Positions 4,444-52,291 of a stretch of 64,000 nt of DNA are shown here, one piece after another. Each line of letters starts with the position of its first letter. Positions within the stretch are counted from its first letter, which is position 1. Below the pieces are notes generated by a model. The model ran no database searches. It saw only the letters and a list, made by a program, of their open reading frames with translations, and was not told the origin of the DNA. The translations under genes and the position numbers were made by a program. The DNA is from Candidatus Abyssobacteria bacterium SURF_5. Its GTDB lineage: Bacteria; Abyssobacteria; SURF-5. Where the stretch lies: NCBI GenBank assembly GCA_003598085.1, contig QZKU01000143.1, positions 5,729-69,728 on the forward strand. Direction: 5' to 3'.

Positions 4444-4509
4444 GGTGCGGAGGCGGGCCGCTCAGCTACAACTTTAAGAATTGAAAAGAATCGAAAGGAT
4501 AATGCGCTC

Positions 4510-5055: not shown

Positions 5056-5059
5056 AGGG

Positions 5060-6619
5060 ATGAACTTGTTCGATCCGATAAAGCTCGAGATTTTCAAGAA
5101 CCTCTTCAGCTCGGTTGCCGACGAAATGGGCGTTGTGCTGCAGAGAACAGGTTTCTCGCCGAACATAAAAGAGCGCCTGGATTTTTCGTGTGCGGTTTTT
5201 GATGGAGCCGGCGAGATGGTCGCTCAGGCCGCCCATATCCCTGTCCATCTCGGCTCGATGCCGCTCTCAGTGAAAAGCGCAATCGAGTCGCTGGAGATGG
5301 AACCGGGCGACGTGGTCATCTTGAACGACCCGTTCCGAGGCGGGACGCATTTACCCGATGTGACCATGGTCGCGCCGGTTTTCCTGGACCAAAACCGCCC
5401 TCAATTCTACGTGGCCAACCGTGCTCACCATGCCGATATCGGCGGGCTGATGCCGAGTTCGATGCCGCTCTCCACCTCAATCTATCAGGAGGGCTTGATC
5501 ATTCCGCCCGTCAAGCTGGTGTCACGCGGGAAAATTCAGAAGGACCTGCTTTCGGTCATACTGGCCAACGTGAGGACGCCGGTTGAGCGGGAGGGCGATA
5601 TATCGGCTCAGCTTGCGGCCTGCGAGACGGGCTCGCGCAGGCTGTTCGAACTGCACGCGCGTTACGGGCTGACCGAGTTGCGGACAGCGGCCTCCGCATT
5701 GATGGATTATGCGGAAACCCTGATGCGACACACAATCGGGGGTATTCCGGACGGAGTCTATTCTTTCGAGGATTTCCTGGATGACGACGGCCTTGGCGCC
5801 GAAAGAATTCCCATTCGAGTCGCCGTTACCATACAGCGAGATACGGCTTCGGTCGATTTCACCGGAAGCGCTCCTCAGGTCGCCGGCTGCGTGAACGCGG
5901 TATTCGCCATTACTGTCTCGTGCGTCTTTTACGTGTTCCGCTGTCTGACGGACGAAATGGTTCCGTCCAATGCCGGCTGCCTCAGACCGATTCGCGTCAG
6001 CGTTCCGGAACATTCCGTCGTAAACGCGGCGCCTCCCGCAGCCGTCGTTGGAGGCAATGTGGAAACGTCACAACGTATCGTGGATGTCCTTCTCGGAGCG
6101 CTGTCGGCGGCGATGCCCGAAAAAATTCCCGCGGCAAGTTGCGGCAGCATGAATAACGTCTCCATCGGCGGCTACGACTGCATCCGCAATCGGATGTTCA
6201 CATATTACGAGACGCTGGCAGGAGGCATGGGCGCGCGTCCGCAGAAAGACGGTCTGGATGCAGTCCATACACATATGACCAATACGATGAACACCCCGGT
6301 TGAAGTTATCGAAACCACCTACCCACTCAAGGTGGTGCAATATGCGATCAGGCCCGGATCGGGCGGACGCGGTAGGCGCAACGGCGGCAACGGCCTGGTC
6401 AGGGAATACGAACTTCTGTGCGCATCGGAGGTTTCGGTTCTGTCTGAGAGACGTCTGTTCGCTCCGTATGGAATCGCAGGCGGCGAGGCCGGTCGAAAGG
6501 GCGAAAATCTGATTTTTAAAGACGGTCATTGGCAATCTCTTCCGCCCAAGATCAACATGCAATGCAGCGCGGGGTCCCGCCTGCGGATTATGACGCCTGG
6601 AGGAGGCGGGTATGGCTAG
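5060..6619 (+). CDS. hyuB: Hydantoinase B / acetone carboxylase alpha family protein (copy 1)
   Basis: The longest frame begins at 4979, inside the HD gene. The family N-terminus (DPIKLEIFKNLFSSVADEMG) begins at ATG 5060, giving 519 residues. Characteristic blocks are FSCAVFDGAGEMVAQAAHIPVHLG, the metal-site region ILNDPFRGGTHLPDVT, ANRAHHADIGG, and the glycine-rich terminus RIMTPGGGGYG. It pairs with HyuA (2452) as the B subunit. It ends at the typical glycine-rich point without extra domains, unlike the second copy in this window. The stop overlaps the following gene by 8 bp. Confidence 0.93.
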   Translation: MNLFDPIKLEIFKNLFSSVADEMGVVLQRTGFSPNIKERLDFSCAVFDGAGEMVAQAAHIPVHLGSMPLSVKSAIESLEMEPGDVVILNDPFRGGTHLPDVTMVAPVFLDQNRPQFYVANRAHHADIGGLMPSSMPLSTSIYQEGLIIPPVKLVSRGKIQKDLLSVILANVRTPVEREGDISAQLAACETGSRRLFELHARYGLTELRTAASALMDYAETLMRHTIGGIPDGVYSFEDFLDDDGLGAERIPIRVAVTIQRDTASVDFTGSAPQVAGCVNAVFAITVSCVFYVFRCLTDEMVPSNAGCLRPIRVSVPEHSVVNAAPPAAVVGGNVETSQRIVDVLLGALSAAMPEKIPAASCGSMNNVSIGGYDCIRNRMFTYYETLAGGMGARPQKDGLDAVHTHMTNTMNTPVEVIETTYPLKVVQYAIRPGSGGRGRRNGGNGLVREYELLCASEVSVLSERRLFAPYGIAGGEAGRKGENLIFKDGHWQSLPPKINMQCSAGSRLRIMTPGGGGYG

Positions 6620-24396: not shown

Positions 24397-24623
24397 ATCC
24401 GTAAGAGTTCTCAAGAGATTATTCAAGCCGGGAAAACGAAGCGTGTACAAGGCATAATAGCACCTGCATTTTTTCACTGTCAAGGAAAGGCGGCCTCGCG
24501 CTCCGCCCGGTTTGCGCCGAAACGCCCTGTCGCATAACTTGCGCCTCTATAATCTGTGTGCTATCATAAGGATGCGTCATCCAGAAAAAGAACTTGGCGG
24601 CTGAGGACACCATAGCCTTTATC

Positions 24624-27600
24624 ATGCAAATAGACGCAATAAGAGAGCAATTCTCTCAACCTCCTGCCGAATACTCCCCCACTCCTTTCTGGTTTCTCAA
24701 TGATAATCTCCAGGAAGATCGCATCGCGCAAAACCTTGAAGAACTCAAAGCAAAGGGTATCTCAAGCGTCATCATCCACCCTCGAACCGGCCTTGAAATC
24801 GAATATCTTTCCCCGCTCTATTGGGAGCGAATAACCTTTATCTGTGAGTCACTGAAGCGGCTGCGCATGACCGGATGGCTCTACGACGAATACAATTGGC
24901 CCAGCGGTCCGGTCGGCGGCAAATTATTGCGCGAACATCCTGAGTACAAGCAGATAACCCTCGACTACCTGATATTTCCGCCTTCACGACTGATAAAAGG
25001 ATTGCAGCATCTGAACGCGCACGTATATGCGGCGTTCGAGCTTTCATCCGATACCGTAGTCGAGAAAACCGAAAGTATTCTTAAGCGCCGGTTTAACGAC
25101 TTGTCCGGGGATGTGCTCCTCTTCTTAAGAAGGACCGTGCAGGTTCTTACCCATGCCTCAACCTGCGCCCCCTGGACCCGAGGCGAAGCCGGCTATCTCG
25201 ACGTGCTGAACCCCGCCGCCACTGACGAATTCATGAGAATGACGCATGTCGAATACGATCGGCACATCCGCCGCTACTACGGCGACCCTATCATAGGAAT
25301 TTTCACCGATGAACCCGGGAATTACGGAGCGCTGCCTTTCAGTTCCATTCTTCCTGCCGAATACGAAAGACGTTATCATGACAAGTTTCTCGATTGTCTC
25401 CCGAGTCTGGCCGGTCGAATCCCCGGCATTCCTATCGAGCAACAGGTTTTGAATCGCACCAGGTATTTCGAACTCGCGCGAGACATGTTCGCCGGCAATT
25501 TTTTTGGGAAAATTGCGGCTTGGGCCTCGGAACGGGGCCTCTTTTTGACCGGCCATCTCAATGAAGATGATAAGATCAACCGCCTGCCAGGCATCAGCGC
25601 CAGCTTTTTTCAGCCATTGAGCCGGATGTCGATGCCCGGAATCGACGTGCTCGAAGATAGGCACGGGTTCGATCGTGGTTGCCGCCTGATGGCGCACCCG
25701 AATTTCTTGCCGAAAGCAGCCAGCAGCGTTTCGCATCATTGCGGGCTGATGCGAACCTTATGCGAGATATGGGGCGGCAACGGGTGGGAGACCTCGCCGG
25801 AGCGGCTCAAAGGCGTCCTGAATTGGACCCAGGCGTGCGGAGTGAACTTCATTAATCCTCACGCCGCCTTCATGTCGTTGCGGGGACTGCGAAAACGAGA
25901 TTTTCCCGCATCTCATTTTCCGCCGCAGCCATGGTGGCGGTTCTACAAGAAATTCTCCGACTATATCGCACGGCTCAGCTATCTCAACTCCCAAGGGGCG
26001 CACGTGGCGGCCACTCTGCTCGCTTTTCCGATGAAGAGCTTGTGGGCCGAGTTCGACCTGAAGGCCGAAGACAGCAAGTTTGCTGATTTGATTGAGCGGG
26101 TATCGGAAACCCTGCTCAGGAATCAATTGGATTTCGATTTCCTGTTTGATGAGTTTCTGGACGACCACGAGCCAACGCTCCAGGACGGGCGGATCAAGAT
26201 AGGAGAAGAGGTTTATTCGATACTGCTACTTCCAATAAATTCAGTGATTCCGGAAAAATTGCTGCAACTGGCAGAACGTTTTGCGGCGGCCGGCGGAAAG
26301 GTCTTTGCCTTCGGATATCAACTGCCGGCGCATAACGAATTCGGGCACGAGATATCGAAACGGATCGAGGCGCTTTTCGGAGGATCAAAGCCGGAAAACG
26401 TGGAATATCATCACGTGGGAACAGAGAATGATTCCACCTTTTCATGGCTCCTGAAAAAACTTGATCAGTGGCTGCGCCGCGACTTCCAGATCGAGGGGCT
26501 GACCGCCAGGAACTTTGCCTACCTGCACCGGAAAACCGACGGGGCGGATATTTATTTCGTCGCCAATCTCTCTGAACAGGAAGGCGCGGTCGATCTGAAA
26601 TTCCGCTGCGCCGGCCGGCCACAGCTCTGGAACCCTGAAGACGGCTTGATTCAAGACGTGCTCGCATATAGAACCGACAACGTGCATACGACGATTAATC
26701 GGCATTTCCATCCGAATGAAGCGGCATTCTTCGTTTTTCTTGATGAGCCTCCCGTCGATCATGTTGATTCCACTAATTTCGTGCTCACCGCCGTCACGCC
26801 GGATTTTGTCGAAGGATATGCGAGCGCGCTCGAGGTGAGAGTCGTCCAAAACAATAAACGATATATCCGAACCGTCGAGCAGGCATATCAGCCTCTCCTC
26901 CTGCCGAGGCGATGGCAGATTGAGTACCCCTTGCGCAATATCCTGCTGCTTGACCAATGGAAAGTCGAAATGCTTTCGGAGGTCGAGCGACCCAAATGGG
27001 ATCCCCATGAAGACCCTCGGCTCGGCATTCGCACCCGCCTGATCCTGCAAGCACTCCGCAAGACGATGTCCTTCGCAAAGACATTAACCGGGCGCGATGG
27101 CGGTGGAGGGAAACGAGAGACCGCAAAATATCGGCGGCTTTCGCATGCAGTGACATCTGCGGCTAAATGGAGTAAAATACTTGGCATCGACCCTCAGAAC
27201 TTTGAAGAGGCCGAAGGGATCCTTTTAAAAATGGCCGAATATGCCGGAGTCCCCGTCGGGCATGACTATCCCCCTCCCGCAAGTGCATATGCCATGATAA
27301 CTTCCTTCGTGATTGAACATGTGCCAGAGGATCTCGCTCTGGTGTACGAGGAGAGCGATGGAAACCCCGTATCGATCCAATTGAACGGCCACGAGATCGA
27401 CAGAAAACCCGAACCCATTTTCATATGGGACGACTCCAATCGCTTGATCCCTCTCTCCACCCTCGTAAGAAAGGGAGCAAACCGCCTGCGGCTGGAGTGG
27501 CGGCAACCAGAATTCCCGACTCTTTTTCCCAGCGTTCATGGTATCGAACCCGTCTGCCTCATCGGCCGCTTCTGGGTGAAAAAGAAAAGGATCGTCGAAC

Positions 27601-27959
27601 AGCTCTACGGCGCGCCGGCCATCCCCTGGGCGGATATCGGTCTTCCCAACTTCATTGGCACGATGACATACAAAGCATCATTCAAGTTGCCGCTCAAATA
27701 CATCGGCCAGCAACTGCTCCTCAAGTTTTACCGGATACATGAAGCAGCCGAGGTCAAAATAAACGATAAATATGCCGGACAATTGTTGTGGAGGCCGTAC
27801 GTACTCGACGTAACGCATTTGCTGAAACAGGGAGAGAACAGCATCGAAGTCACCGTCGCCAATACAGCAGCAAACCTGTTGGGCGAGCCGGTCCCTGCGG
27901 GAATGATCGGAAGACCATACATCGTGCCCTACTGGCGCCATCGAATCCGCTTCCGCTGA
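24624..27959 (+). CDS. Large glycoside hydrolase-like protein, GH106/alpha-L-rhamnosidase related
   Basis: This 1111-residue cytoplasmic-looking protein (no signal peptide) begins with the GH106-like pattern. That comprises P-F-W-F-L-N-D, then I-I-H-P-R-T-G-L-E, Y-W-E-R-I, and the highly typical G-W-L-Y-D-E-Y-N-W-P-S-G-P-V-G-G-K. F-T-D-E-P-G around residue 228 and G-H-L-N-E-D may supply carboxylates of the active site. The C-terminus (about 1010-1110) is a GH2-type sugar-binding beta sandwich. GH106 enzymes remove terminal alpha-L-rhamnose. The relation is by eye and the true substrate is unknown. ATG 24624 is chosen over TTG 24594. Confidence 0.75.
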   Translation: MQIDAIREQFSQPPAEYSPTPFWFLNDNLQEDRIAQNLEELKAKGISSVIIHPRTGLEIEYLSPLYWERITFICESLKRLRMTGWLYDEYNWPSGPVGGKLLREHPEYKQITLDYLIFPPSRLIKGLQHLNAHVYAAFELSSDTVVEKTESILKRRFNDLSGDVLLFLRRTVQVLTHASTCAPWTRGEAGYLDVLNPAATDEFMRMTHVEYDRHIRRYYGDPIIGIFTDEPGNYGALPFSSILPAEYERRYHDKFLDCLPSLAGRIPGIPIEQQVLNRTRYFELARDMFAGNFFGKIAAWASERGLFLTGHLNEDDKINRLPGISASFFQPLSRMSMPGIDVLEDRHGFDRGCRLMAHPNFLPKAASSVSHHCGLMRTLCEIWGGNGWETSPERLKGVLNWTQACGVNFINPHAAFMSLRGLRKRDFPASHFPPQPWWRFYKKFSDYIARLSYLNSQGAHVAATLLAFPMKSLWAEFDLKAEDSKFADLIERVSETLLRNQLDFDFLFDEFLDDHEPTLQDGRIKIGEEVYSILLLPINSVIPEKLLQLAERFAAAGGKVFAFGYQLPAHNEFGHEISKRIEALFGGSKPENVEYHHVGTENDSTFSWLLKKLDQWLRRDFQIEGLTARNFAYLHRKTDGADIYFVANLSEQEGAVDLKFRCAGRPQLWNPEDGLIQDVLAYRTDNVHTTINRHFHPNEAAFFVFLDEPPVDHVDSTNFVLTAVTPDFVEGYASALEVRVVQNNKRYIRTVEQAYQPLLLPRRWQIEYPLRNILLLDQWKVEMLSEVERPKWDPHEDPRLGIRTRLILQALRKTMSFAKTLTGRDGGGGKRETAKYRRLSHAVTSAAKWSKILGIDPQNFEEAEGILLKMAEYAGVPVGHDYPPPASAYAMITSFVIEHVPEDLALVYEESDGNPVSIQLNGHEIDRKPEPIFIWDDSNRLIPLSTLVRKGANRLRLEWRQPEFPTLFPSVHGIEPVCLIGRFWVKKKRIVEQLYGAPAIPWADIGLPNFIGTMTYKASFKLPLKYIGQQLLLKFYRIHEAAEVKINDKYAGQLLWRPYVLDVTHLLKQGENSIEVTVANTAANLLGEPVPAGMIGRPYIVPYWRHRIRFR

Positions 27960-30821: not shown

Positions 30822-32507
30822 CTATTGAAAATAGAATTCCAACCATTCGCTCCAACAGCGGGGCTGTGTGTCCGGCGAGATACGCACCCTCCACGGATTC
30901 CGGACACCGAGCGCAAGCCATATCTCCTTCGAATACGGCCCGAAATCGCGCTGATTTCCGTAATTGAGGAATGAACCGGTGAGGTGATGAATTCCGTCGC
31001 CTATGTCATATTCGATGATGTACGTCATCACAGGACTTCCGGTCCATGAGGCGCGCACCATCCCGTGCCTCTCGTTGAAGCGAAGAACCACTCCGTCATA
31101 CGGAAAAATGAGTTGCGGGCAAAGCCCTTCGCTTCCGCTGTCCACCAAAGCAGATTGGTGCGCGGCAAGCGCGTTCCGGCGGAGAACGTTTTCCCGCTTC
31201 CACTCGTCTAAGAGCGTCAGAAGAATATTGGCAGGCTCGGGGTTTTTGTCGTAGACGTTTCGGTGCTCCTTGATGTCTATCAGCAAATCAAAGAGTTGAT
31301 AGTTTTTTCCTGCCGGGCCTTCTGTCTCGATCAGCTTCCAGGAGTCGGTCCGCACGCATCTCAACCGCGTCTCCTCCATTTCGCCGCTCGCCTGGTATCC
31401 GCCGTAAATAGTCTCGGCGAAGGCAGGAATACTCGACTCGCTTCGCTTGCCGGCATCGAAAATGAGGGGCGCCAGAGAGCGTCCTTGTATCCCCGACGGC
31501 ATCGGGATTCCCGTCAGCTCGAGAAGCGTCGGCATGATATCTATCTGCTGCACTTGCTCCCGTATTTGCACTCCCTCCGGAAGATAACCGGACAAAGACA
31601 TGATCAGCGGGATTCGCAGCACCTCGTCATACACGGTCGCTGAACGCGATGTCGATGCGTGCCCCACAAAACCATGATCAAACAGCTCCTCTCCATGGTC
31701 CGCCGTAATGACAAGCAGCGTCTTCTCAAGCAGGCCGTATTTGTGCAGGCGCGCGCACAGACGGCCCACAAAGAAATCCAACTCGATCACTTCTCCGTCG
31801 TAGAGATCGTGTATGATGGCCCGATCCGATTGCTGGAACTTGACCGTGTCGACAAATACGCTGGCGGAATCTGAAAGAACGGCCTTCACGCCCGGTGACA
31901 CCTGATTTTCATTCGGATGCCCCGAAAGAAAAACTGAGTGAGTGCTTTCCCGCGGCCTGTACGGAAGGTGTACGTTTCGGTAGTGATACCAGAGGAAGAA
32001 CTTGGAGTCATGATTCTCGTCGATCCAGCGAAAGATCTCCTCGCCATCCTCTTCAGAGAAATACCGTTCTTCGACCGGCCCAATGCGTATGCCCAAAAAT
32101 TCCGGCAACGTGAGAACAAAACAGATGTTCGGAACTTCATATTCGGCCTCCGCAAAACAGTCGAAAATGGTCGTAATCTCGGAGTCCAGCAGCTGCCCCC
32201 GCTTGTCAACCTGATGTACCGGCGGCTGAAGAGAGGTCAAAACGGAAATCAGACCGGGTACGGTCCATGCCGATTGACTGAACACCCGGCGAAAAAGCAC
32301 TCCCCGCTCGGCAAGCGCATCGATATTCGGACTCGTTGCTCTGTTGTGTCCATAACAGCTCAAATGATCGGCACGAAGCGAGTCCACAGTCAGAAGAATG
32401 ACGTTGATATCCTCAGGCGCCCGTCTGGGGGATGGTCGCTCCGTCACGAGAAAGAGAACGCCGGCTAAAACAGCAAAAATAAATATCTTTCCTGTACTTC
32501 TTCCCAT
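30822..32507 (-). CDS. Sulfatase-superfamily hydrolase with Thr at the formylglycine position
   Basis: The 561-residue protein has an N-terminal hydrophobic anchor (residues 8-22). The alkaline-phosphatase/sulfatase core starts NVILLTVDSLRADHLSCYGH, with a metal site in TADHGEELFDHGF and an IDIMPTLLELTGI strand. The canonical CxPxR sulfatase motif is replaced by T82-V-P-G-L in SAWTVPGLISVLTS. A formylglycine cannot form, and Thr may act as nucleophile, as in phosphoethanolamine or phosphoglycerol transferases. The C-terminal 150 residues are beta-rich. It is the last gene of a three-gene unit, starting 1 bp after vanZ. Confidence 0.85.
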   Translation of the reverse strand: MGRSTGKIFIFAVLAGVLFLVTERPSPRRAPEDINVILLTVDSLRADHLSCYGHNRATSPNIDALAERGVLFRRVFSQSAWTVPGLISVLTSLQPPVHQVDKRGQLLDSEITTIFDCFAEAEYEVPNICFVLTLPEFLGIRIGPVEERYFSEEDGEEIFRWIDENHDSKFFLWYHYRNVHLPYRPRESTHSVFLSGHPNENQVSPGVKAVLSDSASVFVDTVKFQQSDRAIIHDLYDGEVIELDFFVGRLCARLHKYGLLEKTLLVITADHGEELFDHGFVGHASTSRSATVYDEVLRIPLIMSLSGYLPEGVQIREQVQQIDIMPTLLELTGIPMPSGIQGRSLAPLIFDAGKRSESSIPAFAETIYGGYQASGEMEETRLRCVRTDSWKLIETEGPAGKNYQLFDLLIDIKEHRNVYDKNPEPANILLTLLDEWKRENVLRRNALAAHQSALVDSGSEGLCPQLIFPYDGVVLRFNERHGMVRASWTGSPVMTYIIEYDIGDGIHHLTGSFLNYGNQRDFGPYSKEIWLALGVRNPWRVRISPDTQPRCWSEWLEFYFQ

Positions 32508-32508
32508 A

Positions 32509-33096
32509 TTATTTCAGCCGCTCCAAAGGCATCTTCCCACGGCTCCGTTTCGTTAACAACGCAATCAGCGCCAGCCCGAAAGCGGATGCAAGACCATTGG
32601 TGACGATGTCTCGTGTTTCAAATGTGCGGTTCGGAAGAAAATATTGTATGCTTTCATCGATAGACCCGAAAACCAGTCCGAAAAGGAATGCGAGTGCGTA
32701 GGAAAACCTGGTCGAAAAATCAAAAGAGAAAGCTCTCAACGCAAGGAAAACCAGAGCTCCGTACTCCACAAGGTGCAATTTTTCCGCCGGAAATTTGCAG
32801 TAGTATTTCAATACGTAACCGTAGCCCATTGACAGCGCCGCCAATGCAATGATCCTGAAAGGGCCGTAGTCTCTCCATGAACCAACCATGATATAGAAAA
32901 AAAAGAGCAGCAGCGCAACAGAAAACATATAAGGGAAATTGCTGAAGCCCGCCCCAAAAGTAAGAACCGCTCTCTCCCACACATACGGCGTCAGCGGCAG
33001 CGAAATCAATATCACCAACTGCATCAAAATTACGAAACCCCAGGCTCGCAGCCTCAGAGCCTGTTGTGTTTCCGCCGTGACATGCACTTCCGACAC
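32509..33096 (-). CDS. VanZ-like membrane protein
   Basis: The 195-residue protein has about five transmembrane helices. It ends with the VanZ signature DESIQYFLPNRTFETRDIVTNGLASAFG: an acidic D-E, Q-Y-F-L-P-N-R, D-x-x-x-N and a final glycine helix. VanZ relatives sit in the inner membrane; in enterococci one confers low teicoplanin resistance, but most have no known role. It is flanked by a secreted fusion protein gene and a sulfatase-like gene with 1-bp gaps on both sides, so tight co-expression is expected. Confidence 0.88.
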   Translation of the reverse strand: MSEVHVTAETQQALRLRAWGFVILMQLVILISLPLTPYVWERAVLTFGAGFSNFPYMFSVALLLFFFYIMVGSWRDYGPFRIIALAALSMGYGYVLKYYCKFPAEKLHLVEYGALVFLALRAFSFDFSTRFSYALAFLFGLVFGSIDESIQYFLPNRTFETRDIVTNGLASAFGLALIALLTKRSRGKMPLERLK

Positions 33097-33097
33097 A

Positions 33098-36000
33098 TCA
33101 GTCCTTTTCGATTACCCTGATTATATTCTTAGTCATCGCTCCATTCTTGAACACGATGGAAAAGCTGTTGACTCCCTCCTCAAGCGGAAGGTTCATCGAG
33201 AAGGCGCCGCTCGAGGCTGCCGATAAAGAATGGGAATTGATCTCGATCGCGCAGTCTGGTTCCGTAACCCCATAAATGCGAACTGTCGCGGCATCAGTGT
33301 ACCGCCTCTCCTCCGGATCCGTCAATACCAGCGCGTACGGACGGTCTATCATGGACGCGATCTCCGTGATTACTTCGCTGCGCGCCTGTTCGATTTTGCC
33401 GGGCTCGCGCGCAAACGACATGAGCGGCAATATACCTGCAGGATCGGTATGCAGCGAATCCCGGGAAACGAGGCGCCGGCACAGTTCTCCGATTCTTATT
33501 GTTGCCACATCTCCCAGATATTCGGCGGAAAGTATCTTCTGCACCGTCTCAATGTTTCGGCGCAGCAAGAATAGGTATTCCATATCCTCGAGCCCCTCGC
33601 GAAGCAGTTCCAATCGTATCGAGGGCGCCGGTCTCCCCCCCTGCGAATAAATCAGCACCCCCTCTCCGTTTCCAAAAAGCGGAATAAACGCTTCATCGAA
33701 CGGCTGCGTCCAATTGGCTGCTTCCCAATGCAGAAAACCATCGATTCCATACAACTGCTGCATCCACGGGATTACCCTGAAGGCCGAGGGATCATCTTCT
33801 ATATGAAGTGTCGGGAACGGCTTTACCGGCCCCGCTGTGTACCACCATACCGCTTCTTGCGGCAATCGCCCGTTCACCCGGGCAAGATATTCCGATCGAT
33901 CGGAAAAAAGATGTGGTATCCCAACCGGCAAAAATGAGATGTGAATGCCCCAGATATCGACCGAGCCCACCAGCATCTCATCAGGCATACATGTGACCAG
34001 GAACTTTGGGCGCTTCCCGCGAGAATGGATTTCTCGACCCGTTTCCACGACCGCAGAATATTGATGGTACGTCGGCTCATCGATAAAGTAGACAAATATC
34101 TTGTCCAGCCACCCTTCTTTCTCCCCCAACTCCACCAGAGGAGCATACCATTCGTTGACCGGCGGCAGAGGAAACCGGCACGCGGAGACGCGCTCGTCCC
34201 TTAAGTACTCGCCAATCCTGTCCGAGTTCAGCGACACTGGGGGCTGGTATGGCGTCAGCCTTCGCTCAACAAGAAACCAGTAAAATGAATCGAGCACCTC
34301 CCGACCATCCGCCGAATTTTTATCCACTCCCAGATGACGGGCGACCAGATCGTAATTCAGGCCGACTACGGCTGGCTGTGACGGCGAAGCCGGAATCTCC
34401 CACGGGAGCACTTGAATTTTTATGGGAATCCGACACCATGCCTTCTCCGGATTCTCCAGAATTATCGCCAGCGTCCGCTCTCCAGCGGGAACACCTCTTC
34501 CCACAAAAATCTCCACCCAAAGCCTGACAGGTGCACCGGGTGAAAGATCAAATGAATCAACCGGCTCCAAGATATTGGGATATGCCCCCGCCTCGTTCGC
34601 AACCAGCGGCAGCGGCACGGTAGTGTCCCTTTCTCCATATACCTCAATGCGAAAATGTGAAGCATCTTCATTTCGGGGTGGCGATTCAACTTTCCACGTG
34701 ACCCGTTCCGCCTCCTTCTCACTGCTGATCAGGAGTTGGAAAGACTCGTTTTCATTTCGGGCACACGTGACGGTGACGGGCAGATTCTTCAACCCCCTTC
34801 GTTCGCCAGCGAAAATGCGCCGAGTGCTTTCCGCCCACGACACTGATATTGCGTCTGAAGCAGCACCTTTGCCATGATTTTCCGCGTCAAATGAGCGCGT
34901 TATCTCCCGCAGCGCCTCTTCCGGCGACAGCAGCCCTGCATCCAGTTGGGCTACAGCCCGCGAAATCTTTGAAAATGCGCCACCGCCCAAAGACAGATCC
35001 AGCGGTTTCCCCGCCCGGGCCGATACCAGAACCTGTCGATATAATGGGTCATCTTCTTCGATTTCCATTCCCCCCGCAGTGCTTGTGAAGGGATTGACGT
35101 AGAAACATTTTTCCTGGAACATCCGATAGTACGACGGATTGAAGAATAATTCCAGGAAGGCCGATGCAGCTTGCAGATTGTCGGTCCGACACAGCACAAA
35201 AACCAGGCTGTCGGACAAAGCGGTCACACGGTTTTCCGAGACCGAAGGCATCGGCGCAATGACGAGTGGAATTTCAGTCGAATCCTGCATTGCCGAAACC
35301 AGGTTGGCATCTTCGATTTGGAAGAGGACTTTTCTATCCGTCACTTCAAGAAAATTTGGATCCCAGAACTTATAGTACGGAGGAAAAACATTTTGCTTTC
35401 GGAATTTGTGCAGCAGTTCCAGGATGTCAGCGAGGACTTCATCTTGCTTTTCTGCCCCCGAAAGCCCTTTCTGGACAGCGAGAATCGAGAATATCGAATC
35501 AAGAGAACGAGTGTTTAGCGTCCATATTTCTTCGGCGCCCGCAGGCCTGTGCTTGGCAACGTGCTTCTGCAATTGCAGGATGTCATCCCAATCCGACGGC
35601 AGCTCGGCCCCAATTTCCGCCAGCAAGGCGGGATTGCAGATAAAAACATACGGGTTCAGAGACGCAGGGATACCGTATAGAAGGTCTCTATACCGCACGT
35701 ATTCCCTGGCGGGGGGAACAAGAACTTTATTTTTCAATATTCCGTGATTCTCGAGGAAGCGGTCAACCGGAAAAATGATGCCCTTATCCGCCAGCGCCGG
35801 GAGCGCCTCGCGCTCGACCAGCGCAAGGTGCGGCCGTTCCTCCGGCTTGATCGAACGAAGCTTCTCCGCTACCGCTCCTCGCGCAGGACCAAAAACCACA
35901 TCCTCGACTCTTGCAGTCTGATCTCGGCAATTGATCTCTTTTATTATTGATTGCAGAATCTTCCGCCTCTGGCCGGTCTCCTGGTGCCAGAGAAGAAGAC

Positions 36001-36121
36001 GTTCCTCAGAAGGTGCGCCGTCAGCATGGACAAATGCGCATGCGAAGACGGCGGCTGCAAGGGCGCCGAAGGCGAGACGAGTAAATTTGAGCACGGCCGT
36101 TCCACTGGCAAAAGCCGCCAA
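33098..36121 (-). CDS. Secreted fusion: solute-binding protein plus GH123-like (DUF4091) hydrolase
   Basis: The protein has 1007 residues. A signal peptide (about 1-33) is followed by an extracellular solute-binding-protein type 1 module (about 40-410; LLLWHQETGQRRKILQSIIK, FPVDRFLENHG, YGIPASLNPYVFICN, FNPSYY). A beta linker (425-575) leads to a DUF4091/GH123-like catalytic region (580-860) with the acidic pair in F-I-D681-E682-P-T-Y. That region also has VDIWGIH, VWWYTAGP, WMQQLYGIDGFLHWEAANW and SIRLELLREGLEDMEYL. The last 80 residues form an Ig-like stalk. GH123 relatives are beta-N-acetylgalactosaminidases. The start is TTG 36121, which is uncertain. The SBP half has no permease genes nearby. 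Confidence 0.8.
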   Translation of the reverse strand: MAAFASGTAVLKFTRLAFGALAAAVFACAFVHADGAPSEERLLLWHQETGQRRKILQSIIKEINCRDQTARVEDVVFGPARGAVAEKLRSIKPEERPHLALVEREALPALADKGIIFPVDRFLENHGILKNKVLVPPAREYVRYRDLLYGIPASLNPYVFICNPALLAEIGAELPSDWDDILQLQKHVAKHRPAGAEEIWTLNTRSLDSIFSILAVQKGLSGAEKQDEVLADILELLHKFRKQNVFPPYYKFWDPNFLEVTDRKVLFQIEDANLVSAMQDSTEIPLVIAPMPSVSENRVTALSDSLVFVLCRTDNLQAASAFLELFFNPSYYRMFQEKCFYVNPFTSTAGGMEIEEDDPLYRQVLVSARAGKPLDLSLGGGAFSKISRAVAQLDAGLLSPEEALREITRSFDAENHGKGAASDAISVSWAESTRRIFAGERRGLKNLPVTVTCARNENESFQLLISSEKEAERVTWKVESPPRNEDASHFRIEVYGERDTTVPLPLVANEAGAYPNILEPVDSFDLSPGAPVRLWVEIFVGRGVPAGERTLAIILENPEKAWCRIPIKIQVLPWEIPASPSQPAVVGLNYDLVARHLGVDKNSADGREVLDSFYWFLVERRLTPYQPPVSLNSDRIGEYLRDERVSACRFPLPPVNEWYAPLVELGEKEGWLDKIFVYFIDEPTYHQYSAVVETGREIHSRGKRPKFLVTCMPDEMLVGSVDIWGIHISFLPVGIPHLFSDRSEYLARVNGRLPQEAVWWYTAGPVKPFPTLHIEDDPSAFRVIPWMQQLYGIDGFLHWEAANWTQPFDEAFIPLFGNGEGVLIYSQGGRPAPSIRLELLREGLEDMEYLFLLRRNIETVQKILSAEYLGDVATIRIGELCRRLVSRDSLHTDPAGILPLMSFAREPGKIEQARSEVITEIASMIDRPYALVLTDPEERRYTDAATVRIYGVTEPDCAIEINSHSLSAASSGAFSMNLPLEEGVNSFSIVFKNGAMTKNIIRVIEKD

Positions 36122-36150: not shown

Positions 36151-36669
36151 TTACTGTTCTCGTGCGAGAACCCGATCAAAGACTTGCTTGTCAGCCTCTT
36201 TGAAAAGAGCAAAGATAATCTTTTGTATTGTCGAATCGTTTTGCTGGAGATGTTGTCGCGCCAAACCAATCATTATTTCCGCGCAGCGCTCAATCGGGAA
36301 ACCGCCAATCCCCGTCCCGATCGCAGGAAATGCAATGGATCGAACGCCGGCTTCCTCTCCCCTGAGCAGGCTGTTCCTGACGGAGTCGCGCAATGATCGT
36401 TCGGAAACCGGTTCATCCCCCATGCTGGCGGCATGTATCACGTATTTTGCGGGAAGCCTGCCGGCGCCGGTAATCGCCGCTTCCCCTATCTCGATGCGGC
36501 CGATTTTATCGCATTCCTCCTGAATGGTGGGACCCCCTTTTGAACGTATCGCGCCGGCTACACCGGCTCCGAGGATCAAATGATTATTGGCGGCGTTAAC
36601 GATGGCATCCACCTCGAGTTCGGTGATATCGCCGCGCACAATGGAAATCTCACCACTTCCTGCTTTCAT
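36151..36669 (-). CDS. Macro domain protein (ADP-ribose / O-acetyl-ADP-ribose hydrolase type)
   Basis: The 172-residue single macro domain resembles YmdB. It shows VRGDITELEVDAIVNAANN, then GAGVAGAIRSKGG for the diphosphate, and the FPAIGTGIGGFP loop near residue 115. Such enzymes deacetylate O-acetyl-ADP-ribose or remove mono-ADP-ribose. It lies upstream of the 1007-residue fusion gene, with 29 bp between its stop and the next start, so it may head that transcript by position only. Confidence 0.93.
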   Translation of the reverse strand: MKAGSGEISIVRGDITELEVDAIVNAANNHLILGAGVAGAIRSKGGPTIQEECDKIGRIEIGEAAITGAGRLPAKYVIHAASMGDEPVSERSLRDSVRNSLLRGEEAGVRSIAFPAIGTGIGGFPIERCAEIMIGLARQHLQQNDSTIQKIIFALFKEADKQVFDRVLAREQ

Positions 36670-36836
36670 TTGGCTTCACCTCCATGGGATCGATGCCGCC
36701 TTCAACCCGATTTTCCGGAGCGGGTCTTAAAAGCATTTTGCGTCCGCGCTTCGACCGCAATCTCGATCCTTTGAAGAGCGTCCCTCAATCTTGTGGAAAA
36801 TGCCTTCTCCAGCATCAATCCTTTTGAGATACCGTT

Positions 36837-37184
36837 CTAGCAGGTCAGGTGAAGCGCGGCGATAACCTTTTTCCCCTGTTCGACCAGCCTGTTAAATTCC
36901 TCGCATGCTTTTTTGGTGGGAGCGGCAAGAACCCTCACGTTCAATTGCTTCAGCGCCTCGGTGACGCGAGGGTCTATTTGCATTCGTCCGGGATCCCCCT
37001 GTCCAATCACCAAAATCTCCGGAGGGTCTGCAAGGACATCCGGAATATCCTCTGTTTGAAGCCTGTGGCCTTCCTTACGCCACCACTCTTCTTGGATTTT
37101 GTCCGGATAGATGATCAGGTCAGACGCATATGAGCGCCCGCCGATGGTGACGGAACCAAAGGAATACCGATCAATAAGAGCCAT
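36837..37184 (-). CDS. MTH938/NDUFAF3-like small protein
   Basis: The 115-residue protein matches the DUF498/MTH938 fold: FGSVTIGGRSYASDLIIYPDKI at the start, EILVIGQGDPGRMQIDPRVTEALKQLNVRV in the middle and TKKACEEFNRLVEQGKKVIAALHLTC at the end. The mitochondrial homologue NDUFAF3 helps assemble complex I; the bacterial role is unknown. It lies 33 bp downstream of rtcB. Confidence 0.88.
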   Translation of the reverse strand: MALIDRYSFGSVTIGGRSYASDLIIYPDKIQEEWWRKEGHRLQTEDIPDVLADPPEILVIGQGDPGRMQIDPRVTEALKQLNVRVLAAPTKKACEEFNRLVEQGKKVIAALHLTC

Positions 37185-37217
37185 AGTCTCTCCCTTTCCG
37201 GTGTAAACCCGGCGTAA

Positions 37218-38666
37218 TCATCCTTTGATTACGCCGAGGGGGCGCAACTTTGCCACGCGCAGGCTTATTCCCGCCTGATGCATCACGTTCACAACGGCGT
37301 TCACATCTTTGTAGGCCTCGGAAACTTCCTCGGCGAGTGTGCTTCTGCCATGGGCCATCACAATAATGTTCTTCTCTTCCAATTCTTTCTTGATCGAGCG
37401 TCCCTTCGTCGCCTTGATTGCGGCGGAGCGGCTCATCACCCGGCCGGCGCCGTGACAGGTCGACCCGAACGTCTCCTCCATCGCCGCATTGGTGCCCACG
37501 CACAGGTACGATGCCCTCCCCATGTCGCCCGGAATCAGCACCGGCTGACCAACGTGCCGGTAATCGGCTGGGATATGGGGATGCGCTGGTGGAAAAGCGC
37601 GCGTCGCCCCCTTTCGATGAACCCACAACATGCGCTCCCGCCCGTCTACCGTATGCTTCTCATACTTGGCAATGTTGTGACACACATCATAGATCAGGCG
37701 CATGCCTAAATCGCGTGGATTCATGTTCAATGTGCGTTCAAATGCGGCCCGCGCCAGATGCATGATTACCTGCCGGTTTGCCCACGCATAATTTGCCGCA
37801 GCCGCCATGGCCGAAATGTAGTCCGCCCCCTCCTGCGATTCCGCCGGGGCGCAGGCAAGCTGCCTGTCCGGCAGCTCGATGTGATACTTCTGGATCGCCC
37901 GCGCCATCACTTTCAAATAATCGTCGCAGATTTGGTGGCCGAATCCGCGTGACCCGCAATGAACCATGACCGTGATCGAATCCTTCTCGATACCGAACAC
38001 GCGGGCGGCCTCGGGATCATATACTTCCTCGACTTTTTCAATCTCGAGAAAATGATTGCCCGAACCAAGCGTTCCCACTTGAGCGGCTCCGCGTTCCACG
38101 GCATGGTCACTCACCTTGTCCGGATCAGCCCCTTGCAGGCACCCCTTCTCCTCGGTATGTTCGAGATCGGCGGCGTCGCCGTATCCATTTTCAACCGCCC
38201 ACTTCGCTCCTTTCACAAACAGCTTTCTCTGCTCGTTTCGGGTCAGCTTCTCGATGCCGCCCTTGGCGCCGACGCCCGTCGGGATCGCCTGGAACAGCGC
38301 CATCACCAAATCGCGAAGGCGCGGCTGGATATCCTGCACCATTAAGTTAGTCCGGATCAGACGGACTCCGCAATTTATATCATAACCCACTCCGCCGGGT
38401 GAGATGACGCCGCCCTCTGCCGGGTCCATGGCCGCAACTCCCCCAATCGGGAATCCATAGCCCCAATGAATATCCGGCATCGCCAGCGAATATCTCACGA
38501 TTCCCGGAAGCGTGGCCACATTGGCGGCTTGCTCGGGACTCTTGTCCTTCTGAATATCGCGCATCAGGCCCTCGTCAGCGTAAATCCTGGCGGGAACCCT
38601 CATCTGGCCGGTCTTGGCGATCTCGTAAATGAAATCGCCGATTTTTTTCATCGCCACTTGCGGCAT
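37218..38666 (-). CDS. rtcB: RNA-splicing ligase RtcB
   Basis: RtcB joins 2',3'-cyclic-phosphate or 3'-phosphate RNA ends to 5'-OH ends with GTP and Mn2+. The 482-residue protein has the family core: GGVGYDINCGVRLIRTNL (metal Cys), GSGNHFLEIEKV, MVHCGSRGFGHQ, and HGAGRVMSRSAA with the guanylylated His. The last residues (KLRPLGVIKG) are the conserved tail. An archease gene, its activator, lies 13 bp upstream, so this is a functional ligase-activator pair. Confidence 0.97.
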   Translation of the reverse strand: MPQVAMKKIGDFIYEIAKTGQMRVPARIYADEGLMRDIQKDKSPEQAANVATLPGIVRYSLAMPDIHWGYGFPIGGVAAMDPAEGGVISPGGVGYDINCGVRLIRTNLMVQDIQPRLRDLVMALFQAIPTGVGAKGGIEKLTRNEQRKLFVKGAKWAVENGYGDAADLEHTEEKGCLQGADPDKVSDHAVERGAAQVGTLGSGNHFLEIEKVEEVYDPEAARVFGIEKDSITVMVHCGSRGFGHQICDDYLKVMARAIQKYHIELPDRQLACAPAESQEGADYISAMAAAANYAWANRQVIMHLARAAFERTLNMNPRDLGMRLIYDVCHNIAKYEKHTVDGRERMLWVHRKGATRAFPPAHPHIPADYRHVGQPVLIPGDMGRASYLCVGTNAAMEETFGSTCHGAGRVMSRSAAIKATKGRSIKKELEEKNIIVMAHGRSTLAEEVSEAYKDVNAVVNVMHQAGISLRVAKLRPLGVIKG

Positions 38667-38679
38667 TTCTCTTACTCAC

Positions 38680-39126
38680 CTAAATGTCAAAAATCACCCG
38701 CGCGAGCCACTGCCCTTCTCTTCTGGCAACCTCGAGTTCGTGATATGTGGCCGCTTTGATGCTTTGTCCTATCGGATGCCTTTTCTGATCGTATGGCTCG
38801 CCCTTGATCGAAGCTTTCATCTTGTTATCCCTGACGGAGACCACTTCAAACCTGCTGAAGAACATCCCGCTCACCTCCGCCCGGAAAAGCAGTTCGTTCA
38901 GCCACGTCACCAGCAGCTCCTCGAGTGACTCCGCTTCCAGGCTGAGCTTCGCTTCTTCTTCTGGTTTCACCTTTCTCACATCGACCATCAGATCAAACAT
39001 CGCACATCCGGCAAGCGCAAATAACTCTTCAAGCGTCTTCCCTCTTACCGAAATGCCGGTATCGGCGGTGTGCTCAATCACTTCGTACTTTTTCTTGATG
39101 TTTTCAGGCCCGGCGACTGCTTTCAC
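38680..39126 (-). CDS. Archease (RtcB activator)
   Basis: The 148-residue protein has archease features: Y-E-V-I-E-H-T-A-D-T-G-I at the N-terminus with the metal Asp, LEELFALAGCAMFDLM, ELLVTWLNELLF and the terminal WLARVIFDI. Archease promotes multiple-turnover guanylylation of RtcB. Its position 13 bp upstream of rtcB fits. A small gap separates it from the upstream zinc-ribbon gene. Confidence 0.95.
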   Translation of the reverse strand: MKAVAGPENIKKKYEVIEHTADTGISVRGKTLEELFALAGCAMFDLMVDVRKVKPEEEAKLSLEAESLEELLVTWLNELLFRAEVSGMFFSRFEVVSVRDNKMKASIKGEPYDQKRHPIGQSIKAATYHELEVARREGQWLARVIFDI

Positions 39127-39147
39127 AATCCCACCACCACGGTCGGC

Positions 39148-48011: not shown

Positions 48012-50099
48012 GTGGGATATAAAATAGGAATCGATGTTGGCGGCACCTTTACCGATCTGGTCTACACGGACCTGACGGCTTCAATCGGGGTGGTCAAAAC
48101 ACTGACTACTCCTGAAAATCAGGCGTTGGGGGTGATGGCCGGTATTAAAAAAATCGCCGTACGCGAAGGGATGACGCCCGCGGAGCTTCTGGCGCAAACG
48201 GAACTGCTCATCCATGGGACGACCGTCGCGACCAACACCATGCTCGAATTCGATGGCGCGTTAACCGGTCTCATTACAACCGACGGTTTCCGGGATGACA
48301 TCGAAATCAGGCGCGGCTACAAGGAACGCATCTTCAACCCGCGGCATGAAGCGCCGGTGCCCATCGCGCGCCGCCGGCACCGCCTCACGGTGGCTGAACG
48401 AGTGGACCGTGAGGGGAAAGTTCTGATCGCGCTCAACGAGGATGAGGCCGTCGAGCGGGTTCGAAAGCTGAAGAACGCCGGCGTCGAGTCAATCGGAGTA
48501 TGCCTCTTCTTCGGGTTCCTGAATCCGGCTCACGAGAAGAAAATCGCTGAGATCATTCGGCGCGAGCACCCGGCTGCTTTCGTCTCGCTCTCCCACGAGG
48601 TGCTCCCGCAGATACGCGAGTTCGAGCGTGTCAGCACCACGCTGGTCAACGCCTACACTGGCCCAAAACTCAAACATTATCTCGAACGTCTCGAAACCGA
48701 ATTGAAAAGAAACGGCCTCGAGAGCGAATTCTTCGTGATGCTCTCAAACGGCGGAATCATGAACGCCGCCTACGCCGGAAACTTCGCCGTCTACAGCCTG
48801 CTCTCCGGCCCGGCCGGCGGGGTGGTCGCCTGCGCCCAACTCATTGGAACCCTTTGCAACGAGCCGAATCTGATCACCGTCGACATGGGCGGCACCAGCT
48901 ATGATGTCTCGCTCATTCGCGGCGGAAAGCCGGCAGTCACTACTGAGTATTGGGTCAGCCGCTACCGGGTGGCGGCGCCCATGCTGGATATCCATACCAT
49001 CGGCGCGGGCGGCGGCAGCATTGCCTGGGTCGACGCGGGCGGCGCTCTGCAGGTAGGTCCCAGAAGCGCGGGCGCGCTGCCGGGGCCGGCATGCTACGGG
49101 AGGGGCGGCGCGGAGCCGGCGGTAACCGACGCGAACCTTCTGCTGGGATACCTCGATCCGGATAATTTTCTCGGCGGCGAAATGAAACTGGATCGCAATG
49201 CGGCCGAACGCGCCATCGAGGAAAAGGTCGCGCGCCCGCTCGGACTCGACGTCCTCCATGCGGCCCACGGGATATTTCGCATCGTCAACAACAATATGAC
49301 CAACGGCATTCGCGTCGTATCCGTCCGCAAGGGATATGATCCGCGCGACTTCACCCTCGTCGCGTTCGGAGGAAACGGGGCTCTTCACGCCGGTGTGCAG
49401 GCAAAAGAACTGGGCATCGGGAAAGTCATTGTCCCTCGCATTGCGACCGCATTCTCCGCGCGCGGTCTCCTCGCCTCGAACATCGTTGTGAACAAGATGC
49501 GAACCTATATCGGCCGCTCGGATGCCCACGAACTCCCCCAGATCAATGCGCTTATCCATTCGATGAAAGAGGGGGCGGAACAGGATTTGCCCGCTGCCGT
49601 GAGAAAGCGCGCCGGTTTGGTGGAGACCGTAAAGTGGAACTATCAGATTGACATGCATTATAAGGGAGAGACACACGAGATCACCGTCCCGCTTGGGGCG
49701 GAGGATGGGGCCGTCACCGACCAAACTCTGGGCGCGGCGGTGGAATCATTTCATGCCGCCCATGAGATGCTCCATACTTTTTCCAATCCGGGCGACCCGG
49801 TCTTCTTCATGAATCTGCGGGTGGAAATGATTATCGAGACCGAAAAACCGCCTGTTCAACGGCTTGCCTTTCAGGGAGAGGACCCTTCTGCGGCCCTGCG
49901 ATCAACGCGAAATGTCTTTTTTAATGAGCAGGGCGGCTTCATCCAGACCCCGATATACGACGGCGCGCGTGTCCGATGCGGAAATGTCTTTGTCGGCCCT
50001 TGCATCATCGAGGAGCCCGCGACAACCATAGTCGTTTACCCGAAGCAGAGGGCGCGCCTGACAGAGTACGACAGTTATGAGATGGTGATAGCAGGATAA
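48012..50099 (+). CDS. hyuA: Hydantoinase/oxoprolinase family protein, subunit A (copy 2)
   Basis: The 695-residue protein has GIDVGGTFTDLVY at the N-terminus, L-I-H-G-T-T-V-A-T-N-T, VDMGGTSYDVSLI, HTIGAGGGSIAW, G-P-A-C-Y-G and FGGNGALHAG. It starts with GTG 48012 after AAAGGAG. The sequence is clearly diverged from copy 1 (2452), so the two systems likely have different substrates. It lies between the double-MerR regulator gene and hyuB-SCP2, 26 bp before the latter. Confidence 0.93.
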   Translation: MGYKIGIDVGGTFTDLVYTDLTASIGVVKTLTTPENQALGVMAGIKKIAVREGMTPAELLAQTELLIHGTTVATNTMLEFDGALTGLITTDGFRDDIEIRRGYKERIFNPRHEAPVPIARRRHRLTVAERVDREGKVLIALNEDEAVERVRKLKNAGVESIGVCLFFGFLNPAHEKKIAEIIRREHPAAFVSLSHEVLPQIREFERVSTTLVNAYTGPKLKHYLERLETELKRNGLESEFFVMLSNGGIMNAAYAGNFAVYSLLSGPAGGVVACAQLIGTLCNEPNLITVDMGGTSYDVSLIRGGKPAVTTEYWVSRYRVAAPMLDIHTIGAGGGSIAWVDAGGALQVGPRSAGALPGPACYGRGGAEPAVTDANLLLGYLDPDNFLGGEMKLDRNAAERAIEEKVARPLGLDVLHAAHGIFRIVNNNMTNGIRVVSVRKGYDPRDFTLVAFGGNGALHAGVQAKELGIGKVIVPRIATAFSARGLLASNIVVNKMRTYIGRSDAHELPQINALIHSMKEGAEQDLPAAVRKRAGLVETVKWNYQIDMHYKGETHEITVPLGAEDGAVTDQTLGAAVESFHAAHEMLHTFSNPGDPVFFMNLRVEMIIETEKPPVQRLAFQGEDPSAALRSTRNVFFNEQGGFIQTPIYDGARVRCGNVFVGPCIIEEPATTIVVYPKQRARLTEYDSYEMVIAG

Positions 50100-50125
50100 C
50101 CGGGCTTTTATTCAGGAGAATACGC

Positions 50126-52291
50126 ATGAATACTTTGGACCCGATAACGACCGAGGTGATCCGCTGCGGCCTCGAAACCATAGCCAACGAAATGGGCGAC
50201 ACCATGATTCGAACGGCAACCACTCCGACTTTCAGCGAGTCCCATGATTTCTCCACCGCCATCTTCGACGGCGCCGCCAGAATCATCGCGCTCGCCGACG
50301 CTTTGCCCATTCATATGGGCGCATCCAAATTCTCCGTAATGGCGGCTCTTGAAGCTTTTCAGGACGATCTCCATACCGGCGACCTCATTGTTGTCAACGA
50401 TCCGTATCACGGCGGTTCTCATCTTCCTGATTGGACCATGATGACCCCGATATTCTTCGAAGGACGCCTCGTTTTCTTCCCGGTGACACGCGCCCATCAG
50501 GGCGATACCGGCGGCGCTGTTCCCGGCGGCTACAATCCCGGCGCGGTCGATATCTGGCAGGAGGGCCTGCGTCTGCCCCCGATAAAGATTTACGAACGCG
50601 GCCGCCCCAGAAACGATATCATCAAACTGCTCCAGATCAACAACCGCGAGCCGACGTTCCTCGGCGATTTGAAGGCGATGATCGGCTCGGTGAGAGTGGC
50701 CGAGCGGCGCCTCCTGGAAATGCTGAAAAAATACGGCGTGCAGGTGGTCACCGATTGCCTGGACGAGATCATCCGCTATACCGAACGCAGGTTCAGGGCT
50801 GAGATCGAGGAGTGGCCCGACGGTATCTACACCGGTGAGGCTTACCTCGAGCACGACTGCCAGGGAACACGCGACGTAACCGTTCGCGCCACAGTTACGG
50901 TTGCCGGCGACTCCCTGAAAATCGATTTCGCCGGCAGCGATCCCCAGACCCGCGGTTTCATCAACAGCTCCGTCCCCAACTCCTATTCATATATCTTCCT
51001 GACGCTGTCCAGCATGATCGACGACTCCATCCCGCGTAACGAGGGGTTGCTTCTTCCCGTTAAGATACTCCTTCCGGAAGGGACCGTAGTCAATCCGCGC
51101 CCGCCCGCTCCATGCACGGCCTGCACCCTGCACGCCGGCGGCGAGATAGGGGAGGCGGTCGCTGTCGCGCTGGCAACCGCGATACCGGAAAAAGCGTATC
51201 CTCAAAATATCAAGCTGGGAATGCCCCTCGTTACCTACGGTGCGAACCCCTATTCCGGCGAGTTTTACGTCGATCAGAATGTCACCATGGCGGCAGGCTG
51301 GTGCAACGCCGCCTGCGGAACCGACGGCTGGGGCGCAATGTCCCCCTTCTTCGGCGCAATGACGATGGCCACCGGTGAATTGCACGACATGTACTATCCT
51401 GTATTGACGGTGGCGCGGCAGTATCTGACCGACTCCGGCGGGGCCGGCACATGGCGGGGCGGCCTCGGAACCCTGCTGAGGATGAAGGCGCTGGCGCCCA
51501 TGTTCATGCATACGTACGTCATCGGCACCAGGTATCCTATGCGCGGATTCAACGGCGGTCTGGATGGCTCGCCGAACAGCATCATCTTGCGCGAAGGGAG
51601 CCCTGCGGAGATCGAAATCGAGGCAACGGCTTTCGAAGAACCTCTCTCGGCCGGACACATGGTTACCGCGAAACTCGGCGGCGGCGGCGGGTGGGGCGAC
51701 CCCCTCACACGCCCTCCACAGGCGGTCCTCGATGACGTCCTCGATGAATATGTATCGCTCGAAGCCGCCCGGCGCGATTATGGCGTCGCGATCGATGAGC
51801 GCCAGATGCGGATCGACCTCGAAGAAACCGGGCGACTTCGCCAACAATTGGCAAAAGAACGCGCCGAAAAACAGCACGAAAAAATGGTTGCCGTACGGTA
51901 CCTCTCCCCTGAGTGGCAGCACATGTGCCAGGCGGCCGTTAACGAGGACCCGGATTTCATCAACCTGGCTGCCGGCATGACAATCGAGCTCAACAACATC
52001 ATTGAAAACTGCCCGGACGGCAGCACTCGCTTCCTCTATTGGAAATTCGAAAAAGGGAAACTCGTCGAGACGCGGGTGGGGCTGGCGGAAGAATTCAGGC
52101 AAACCTCTCTCTTCACAACGATCGCATCCTATGACACTTTCATGAGGATCAATACTGCCAAAATAAGTGTCGAAGCGGCAGTCGTCGAGGGATTGGTTCG
52201 ATTTGAAGGCGACCTTGCCGAAATGATGCGCTTCGTGGAGCCGCTCAATAGATTCACAGAGGTGCGAAGGAGGATTCCAACACAATATTGA
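50126..52291 (+). CDS. hyuB: Hydantoinase B-type protein fused to a C-terminal SCP2-like domain
   Basis: The protein has 721 residues against about 520 for copy 1. The HyuB portion (about 1-570) has FSTAIFDGAARIIALADALPIHMG, VNDPYHGGSHLPDWT, TRAHQGDTGG and the glycine-rich GGGGGWGDPL. Residues 587-721 look like a sterol-carrier-protein-2 domain: Y-L-S-P-E-W, D-P-D-F-I-N-L-A-A-G, F-L-Y-W-K-F-E-K-G-K-L-V-E, S-Y-D-T-F-M-R-I and V-R-F-E-G-D-L-A-E-M-M. SCP2 domains bind lipids or acyl-CoA, so a hydrophobic substrate is suggested. The stop is 3 bp from a convergent kinase gene. Confidence 0.88.
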   Translation: MNTLDPITTEVIRCGLETIANEMGDTMIRTATTPTFSESHDFSTAIFDGAARIIALADALPIHMGASKFSVMAALEAFQDDLHTGDLIVVNDPYHGGSHLPDWTMMTPIFFEGRLVFFPVTRAHQGDTGGAVPGGYNPGAVDIWQEGLRLPPIKIYERGRPRNDIIKLLQINNREPTFLGDLKAMIGSVRVAERRLLEMLKKYGVQVVTDCLDEIIRYTERRFRAEIEEWPDGIYTGEAYLEHDCQGTRDVTVRATVTVAGDSLKIDFAGSDPQTRGFINSSVPNSYSYIFLTLSSMIDDSIPRNEGLLLPVKILLPEGTVVNPRPPAPCTACTLHAGGEIGEAVAVALATAIPEKAYPQNIKLGMPLVTYGANPYSGEFYVDQNVTMAAGWCNAACGTDGWGAMSPFFGAMTMATGELHDMYYPVLTVARQYLTDSGGAGTWRGGLGTLLRMKALAPMFMHTYVIGTRYPMRGFNGGLDGSPNSIILREGSPAEIEIEATAFEEPLSAGHMVTAKLGGGGGWGDPLTRPPQAVLDDVLDEYVSLEAARRDYGVAIDERQMRIDLEETGRLRQQLAKERAEKQHEKMVAVRYLSPEWQHMCQAAVNEDPDFINLAAGMTIELNNIIENCPDGSTRFLYWKFEKGKLVETRVGLAEEFRQTSLFTTIASYDTFMRINTAKISVEAAVVEGLVRFEGDLAEMMRFVEPLNRFTEVRRRIPTQY

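Follow-up and report, generated by a model that had tools for sequence, protein, structure and literature searches.

A solute-binding domain fused to a GH123-type glycosidase in Candidatus Abyssobacteria: conservation of the fusion and possible roles of the binding domain

Gene and domain organization

The window analyzed here, a 64,000-nucleotide stretch of DNA from Candidatus Abyssobacteria bacterium SURF_5 (genome G000, with 5,103,455 bases in 145 contigs), carries a gene on its minus strand (33098..36121) that fuses a solute-binding protein (SBP) domain, a GH123 glycoside hydrolase, and an Ig-like domain. The gene was delineated from the list of open reading frames, Pfam matches, and orthologues. 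It consists of 1007 codons in one frame without interruption, as had been described from the sequence in an original prediction that gave no strand. A genome profile search identified it as the only GH123 gene in the genome. The listed TTG start at 36121 sits within a G+C-rich hairpin (z -1.95), and this hairpin is absent from the list of the terminator scan. An in-frame GTG at 36094 (V10) provides a conventional signal peptide (VLKFTRLAFGALAAAVFACAFVHA-DG) and is probably the likelier start, giving a fusion protein of 998 aa. Residue numbers used here follow the TTG start (1007 aa).

All parts of the protein are encoded on the minus strand. The sequence begins with a Sec-type signal region (residues 1-40, 36002..36121), followed by an SBP_bac_8 solute-binding domain (residues 41-415, 34877..36001) identified by Pfam, PDB profile searches, and alignments. 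The GH123 part comprises an N-terminal beta-sandwich (residues 423-575, 34397..34855), assigned by profile alignment to the N-domain of 8k2f and 8k2h, and a barrel with the DUF4091 region (residues 576-860, 33542..34396), assigned by Pfam, alignments, and the residue list in PMC11087588. A C-terminal Ig-like domain of the Glucodextran_B type (residues 928-1007, 33101..33340) was identified by Pfam and orthologue alignment. The SBP and GH123/DUF4091 identities proposed earlier hold, and the concern that profiles might place only one of them in the frame was not borne out: SBP_bac_8 matches residues 100-355 (E 5.7e-10, 39.9 bits, cut-off 27) and GH123_cat matches residues 667-852 (E 2.1e-12, 47.5 bits, cut-off 23.1). 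Genome profile searches of three genomes in the phylum gave 43-66 bits for SBP_bac_8 and 49.9-59.7 bits for GH123 (DUF4091, PF13320). The Glucodextran_B match (residues 931-996) has 27.0 bits, exactly the cut-off; the domain is kept in the orthologues, and L076, a GH123 protein from outside the phylum, ends in a similar one. The terminal Ig-like domain had been called a stalk, and of that description the fold stands but the stalk is not supported, as the domain is the protein terminus with no anchor behind it. A pattern scan for lipoboxes found none of canonical form in the fusion protein, for which lipoprotein anchoring was rejected; a loose match (LLVC) occurs in just one orthologue. AlphaFold models from a three-sequence input had a pLDDT of 40.7 for the whole protein and 40.5 for the SBP domain and were not used for fold searches.

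Conservation and gene neighborhood

In both other Ca. Abyssobacteria genomes compared (QZKI01000060.1, belonging to Ca. Abyssobacteria SURF_17, and JACRIR010000121.1, which is filed under Poribacteria), full-length orthologues are about 43-47% identical to the fusion from end to end. Gene order is common to the three genomes across a 15-kb syntenic block, from about 30.8 to 46.3 kb of the window. A sequencing or assembly join of two genes, which the original prediction had named as a way to be wrong, is refuted: two further, independent assemblies carry the identical full-length architecture with the same neighbors, no point in favor of a join was found, and its probability is negligible. The SBP-GH123 fusion is real and stably inherited. 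Identity among the orthologues is 36-42% for the SBP domain, 34-46% for the GH123 N-domain, 58-64% for the barrel, and 44-51% for the Ig-like domain. The SBP is thus conserved about equally to the GH123 N-domain and below the barrel, and is thereby seen to be maintained.

Two genes follow closely downstream on the minus strand. One encodes a VanZ-like membrane protein (32509..33096; Pfam and alignment) 1 nt past the fusion stop, and the other, beginning 1 nt after the VanZ stop, encodes a membrane-anchored protein of the sulfatase/alkaline phosphatase superfamily (30822..32507; Pfam and alignments). Each has counterparts in all three genomes, with 37-41% identity for the VanZ-like protein and 63-64% for the "sulfatase"-fold protein, so that the latter is the best-conserved protein of the operon. 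It also has an extra C-terminal region. Its segment T82-V-P-G-L, in which the Thr is invariant, aligns to S-G-P-S-R of 7p24. The C/S-x-P-x-R formylglycine signature does not occur in this protein, and the label "sulfatase" would be premature for it because Thr82 replaces Cys/Ser and the signature Arg is absent. A Thr is the nucleophile in phosphoethanolamine and phosphoglycerol transferases of the same superfamily. By its sequence, a phospho-transferase/hydrolase-type enzyme is more likely than a canonical sulfatase. Given the 1-nt gaps and the conservation of the trio in three genomes, the fusion is probably made together with the VanZ-like protein and the phosphatase/sulfatase-fold enzyme, and the three may act as an envelope-glycan processing unit.

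The genes upstream of the fusion are conserved and appear functionally unrelated to it. They encode an RtcB RNA ligase together with the archease that activates it, as well as DUF498 and a macro-domain protein, arranged in a row in all three genomes (36151-39147, minus), and possibly form an RNA-repair/ADP-ribose unit. Elsewhere, the window contains two separate hydantoinase/oxoprolinase A+B gene pairs (2452-6619 and 48012-52291, plus) and a gene for a GH106-like alpha-L-rhamnosidase of 1121 residues that includes a GH2-type sugar-binding domain (24594-27959, plus).

Catalytic residues and nearest GH123 enzymes

Nine residues are conserved over all GH123 groups (NgaLy D95, W115, D327, E328, Y392, G427, W431, Y466, and R478; PMC11087588). 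The fusion has eight of these (W535, D681, E682, Y761, G795, W799, Y825, and R836), including all four substrate-contacting active-site residues (D681, E682, Y761, and W799), and on this basis the enzyme is predicted to be active. The D-E pair reported at 681-682 is found there in TTG-start numbering; it is invariant among the orthologues and aligns with the DE of 8k2h and 8k2j. The ninth residue, NgaLy D95, corresponds to N516 in all three orthologues. Residues 423-575 align by profile to the N-terminal beta-sandwich of 8k2f and 8k2h.

The closest solved GH123 structures by profile are 8k2h (1.5e-24), 8k2f (2.3e-23), and 8k2j (1.7e-20), all of which carry PDB names of oligosaccharide-releasing or mixed enzymes. 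Matching these to NgaAt (8k2h), NgaCa (8k2f), and NgaDssm (8k2j) rests on the PDB names together with PMC11087588. Matches to monosaccharide-releasing enzymes are far weaker (BvGH123 5l7v, 3e-9; 8k2l, 6e-6; CpNga123 5fqe, 1.5e-3). Because the nearest solved enzymes release oligosaccharides or are mixed, oligosaccharide release seems likelier than exo (monosaccharide) action for the GH123 part of the fusion. The beta-sandwich, barrel, DUF4091 region, DE motif, and eight of the nine residues are alike in the fusion and in GH123 Groups 1-3 (NgaCa, NgaAt, and NgaDssm) of the 2024 deep-sea metagenome study (PMC11087588), whereas the fusion has Asn at the D95 position and is extended by an N-terminal SBP of ~375 residues and a C-terminal Ig-like domain.

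Relatives and landmarks of the solute-binding domain

A PDB profile search with the SBP domains of the three orthologues identified sugar-binding proteins of ABC importers as the nearest solved relatives (4r9f, E 2.7e-18; 7bvt, 7e-16; 4qrz, 4e-12; 2z8d, 8e-11). The fusion SBP is profile-like to importer sugar SBPs of SBP_bac_1 and SBP_bac_8 (4r9f MBP1, 7bvt, and 2z8d GL-BP; E 1e-18 to 1e-10) but differs from them in not being free-standing, in having no adjoining permease, and in lacking two of their landmarks. Profile matches are strong over the N-lobe and weak over the C-lobe, where the alignment with transport SBPs revealed that the G-P-W and G-G landmarks are missing. With these C-terminal landmarks lost, ligand binding by the fusion SBP is not assured.

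One explanation is that the domain no longer binds anything and persists as a structural spacer or solubility module. The loss of C-lobe landmarks and a conservation under that of the barrel are consistent with this explanation, but the SBP is as well conserved as the GH123 N-domain, and at 36-42% identity many positions are invariant across three genera, including the runs LWHQ, LYG.P, and KFWDPNF. The last of these is a signature that the aligned transport SBPs do not have. We consider a spacer improbable.

GH123 architectures outside the phylum

The search for the same fusion elsewhere that had been proposed with the prediction was carried out, and the fusion was present in all three phylum genomes but, among ~800 whole genomes sampled, in none outside the phylum; part of these were scored by their best 2-4 candidates per genome, so that a fusion may have escaped notice. 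None emerged outside the phylum either when 84,980 species genomes were scanned by pattern, a method that reaches close relatives only. Plasmids gave partial GH123 matches only, and viral contigs searched to deepen the alignment gave two weak GH123 matches or none. A literature search of open-licence papers found no description of an SBP-GH fusion.

GH123 proteins elsewhere often carry CBM_4_9 modules (L079, L080, L094, and weakly L075), LamG modules (L024 and L084), or a FlgD-type Ig module (L029). Long GH123 frames in other genomes (926-1397 aa) were considered as SBP fusions and rejected, as they contain CBM_4_9, LamG, a GDSL lipase, or unassigned regions and no recognizable SBP. The longest of these lengths belongs to a protein of another phylum that combines a GDSL-type esterase/lipase with GH123 (1397 residues; L093 3600-7790, minus). 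The modular GH123 enzymes as a set (L079, L080, L094, L024, L084, L027, L029, and L093, with CBM_4_9, LamG, dockerin-like, FlgD_ig, and GDSL modules) are multi-modular like the fusion, but none from another phylum has an SBP. A Glucodextran_B-like C-terminal domain, as in the fusion, occurs in L076 and L094. The fusion SBP occupies the slot where related GH123 enzymes bear CBM4/9 or LamG. Overall, the fusion is a real, conserved combination of two known families, and it has the appearance of a rearrangement specific to this lineage and not of a new kind of system.

Importers in the same genomes

In agreement with the original prediction that no permease or ATPase is adjacent, the window genes that were scanned included no permease or ABC ATPase gene. 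The SURF_5 genome has two other SBP_bac_8 proteins, and both lie within importer loci. One locus (C142) contains an SBP, two permeases, and a MalK-type ATPase; the other (C101), which is flanked by SLT and SpoIID genes, contains an SBP-permease fusion and a second permease. In the latter, the SBP-permease fusion (L048 8047-10371) and the second permease lie beside an SLT lytic transglycosylase and SpoIID (L048 6152-13057), and this importer is possibly tied to peptidoglycan turnover. With its counterparts in L049 and L050, the pairing of a second permease with a 740-824 aa SBP frame recurs in all three phylum genomes. SBP-permease fusions also occur in other phyla (L025 9722-12073, 784 aa; L083 1998-4826, 943 aa) and are seemingly widespread. 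The SBP matches in the Pfam-scanned long frames L025, L083, and L048 were therefore rejected as SBP-GH123 candidates. In these proteins an SBP is covalently joined to its partner, as in the SBP-GH123 fusion, but the partner is the membrane domain of an importer, whereas in the SBP-GH123 fusion it is an enzyme.

These importers bear on a transport role, in which the SBP would take the sugar freed by its own enzyme and pass it to a permease whose gene lies at a distant locus. Each of the three phylum genomes has 10-13 BPD_transp_1 matches as well as sugar-type importers, and among solved structures the SBP is closest to transport SBPs, both of which favor such a role. However, the sugar importers bring their own SBP, in one case as an SBP-permease fusion; no permease was found near the fusion among the window genes scanned; and the fusion SBP is only remotely similar to the importer-locus SBPs and is without GPW and GG. 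Transport is accordingly quite unlikely, and both it and a spacer are less likely than a binding module or an allosteric switch.

Possible roles of the solute-binding domain

The reading we prefer, with confidence evenly balanced between its being right and wrong, is that the protein is a secreted GH123 beta-N-acetylgalactosaminidase/beta-N-acetylhexosaminidase whose SBP has been taken over as a non-catalytic module that binds glycans. A capture role is favored because CBM_4_9 and LamG often fill the slot before GH123 in relatives outside the phylum, and that the phylum genomes have dedicated SBPs for their separate sugar importers is a further point for it. The fusion protein would be exported by Sec, and the SBP cleft would bind a (GalNAc-containing) oligosaccharide or chain end. 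The bound SBP would then keep the substrate, or the oligosaccharide set free, close to the enzyme, where the GH123 barrel would cut by substrate-assisted catalysis, with Asp681 orienting the 2-acetamido group and Glu682 serving as acid/base. The Ig-like domain would be a C-terminal accessory. Points against this reading are that SBPs differ from classical CBMs and close over small ligands, that targeting a polymer would be unusual for an SBP, and that one of the nine GH123 family residues differs (NgaLy D95 = N516).

The main alternative is that the SBP is a sensor, in which a ligand such as a released oligosaccharide closes the cleft and allosterically switches the glycosidase on or off. In Pseudomonas aeruginosa MltF, a lytic transglycosylase, the active site opens when muropeptides occupy the regulatory N-domain (PMC10746161). 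MltF works as a precedent, having the same order of parts, with a periplasmic binding-protein fold before the glycan-cleaving enzyme, and the invariant KFWDPNF, absent from the aligned transport SBPs, is consistent with a sensing function of its own. The SBP-like domain of MltF belongs to SBP_bac_3. The fusion has a different SBP family (SBP_bac_8) and a different catalytic domain, and regulation, known from MltF, would be hypothetical in the fusion. Moreover, the enzyme does not need a switch, as is evident from GH123 relatives that lack an SBP, and models with a pLDDT of about 41 are too poor to reveal an SBP-GH123 interface. By analogy, such a switch is possible although unlikely. Its fuller form is a little more doubtful: a ligand-gated glycosidase in which the SBP would sense a GalNAc-containing oligosaccharide and allosterically control GH123, MltF-like but evolved independently from other parts.

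GH123 has lately been widened to a large family with oligosaccharide-releasing members, and little is known of how these find their substrates. If the preferred binding-module reading or the sensor reading is true, importer-type SBPs would be reusable as glycan-binding or sensing modules outside transport. The isolated SBP domain would then be a direct handle on the glycan handled by this uncultivated subsurface lineage.
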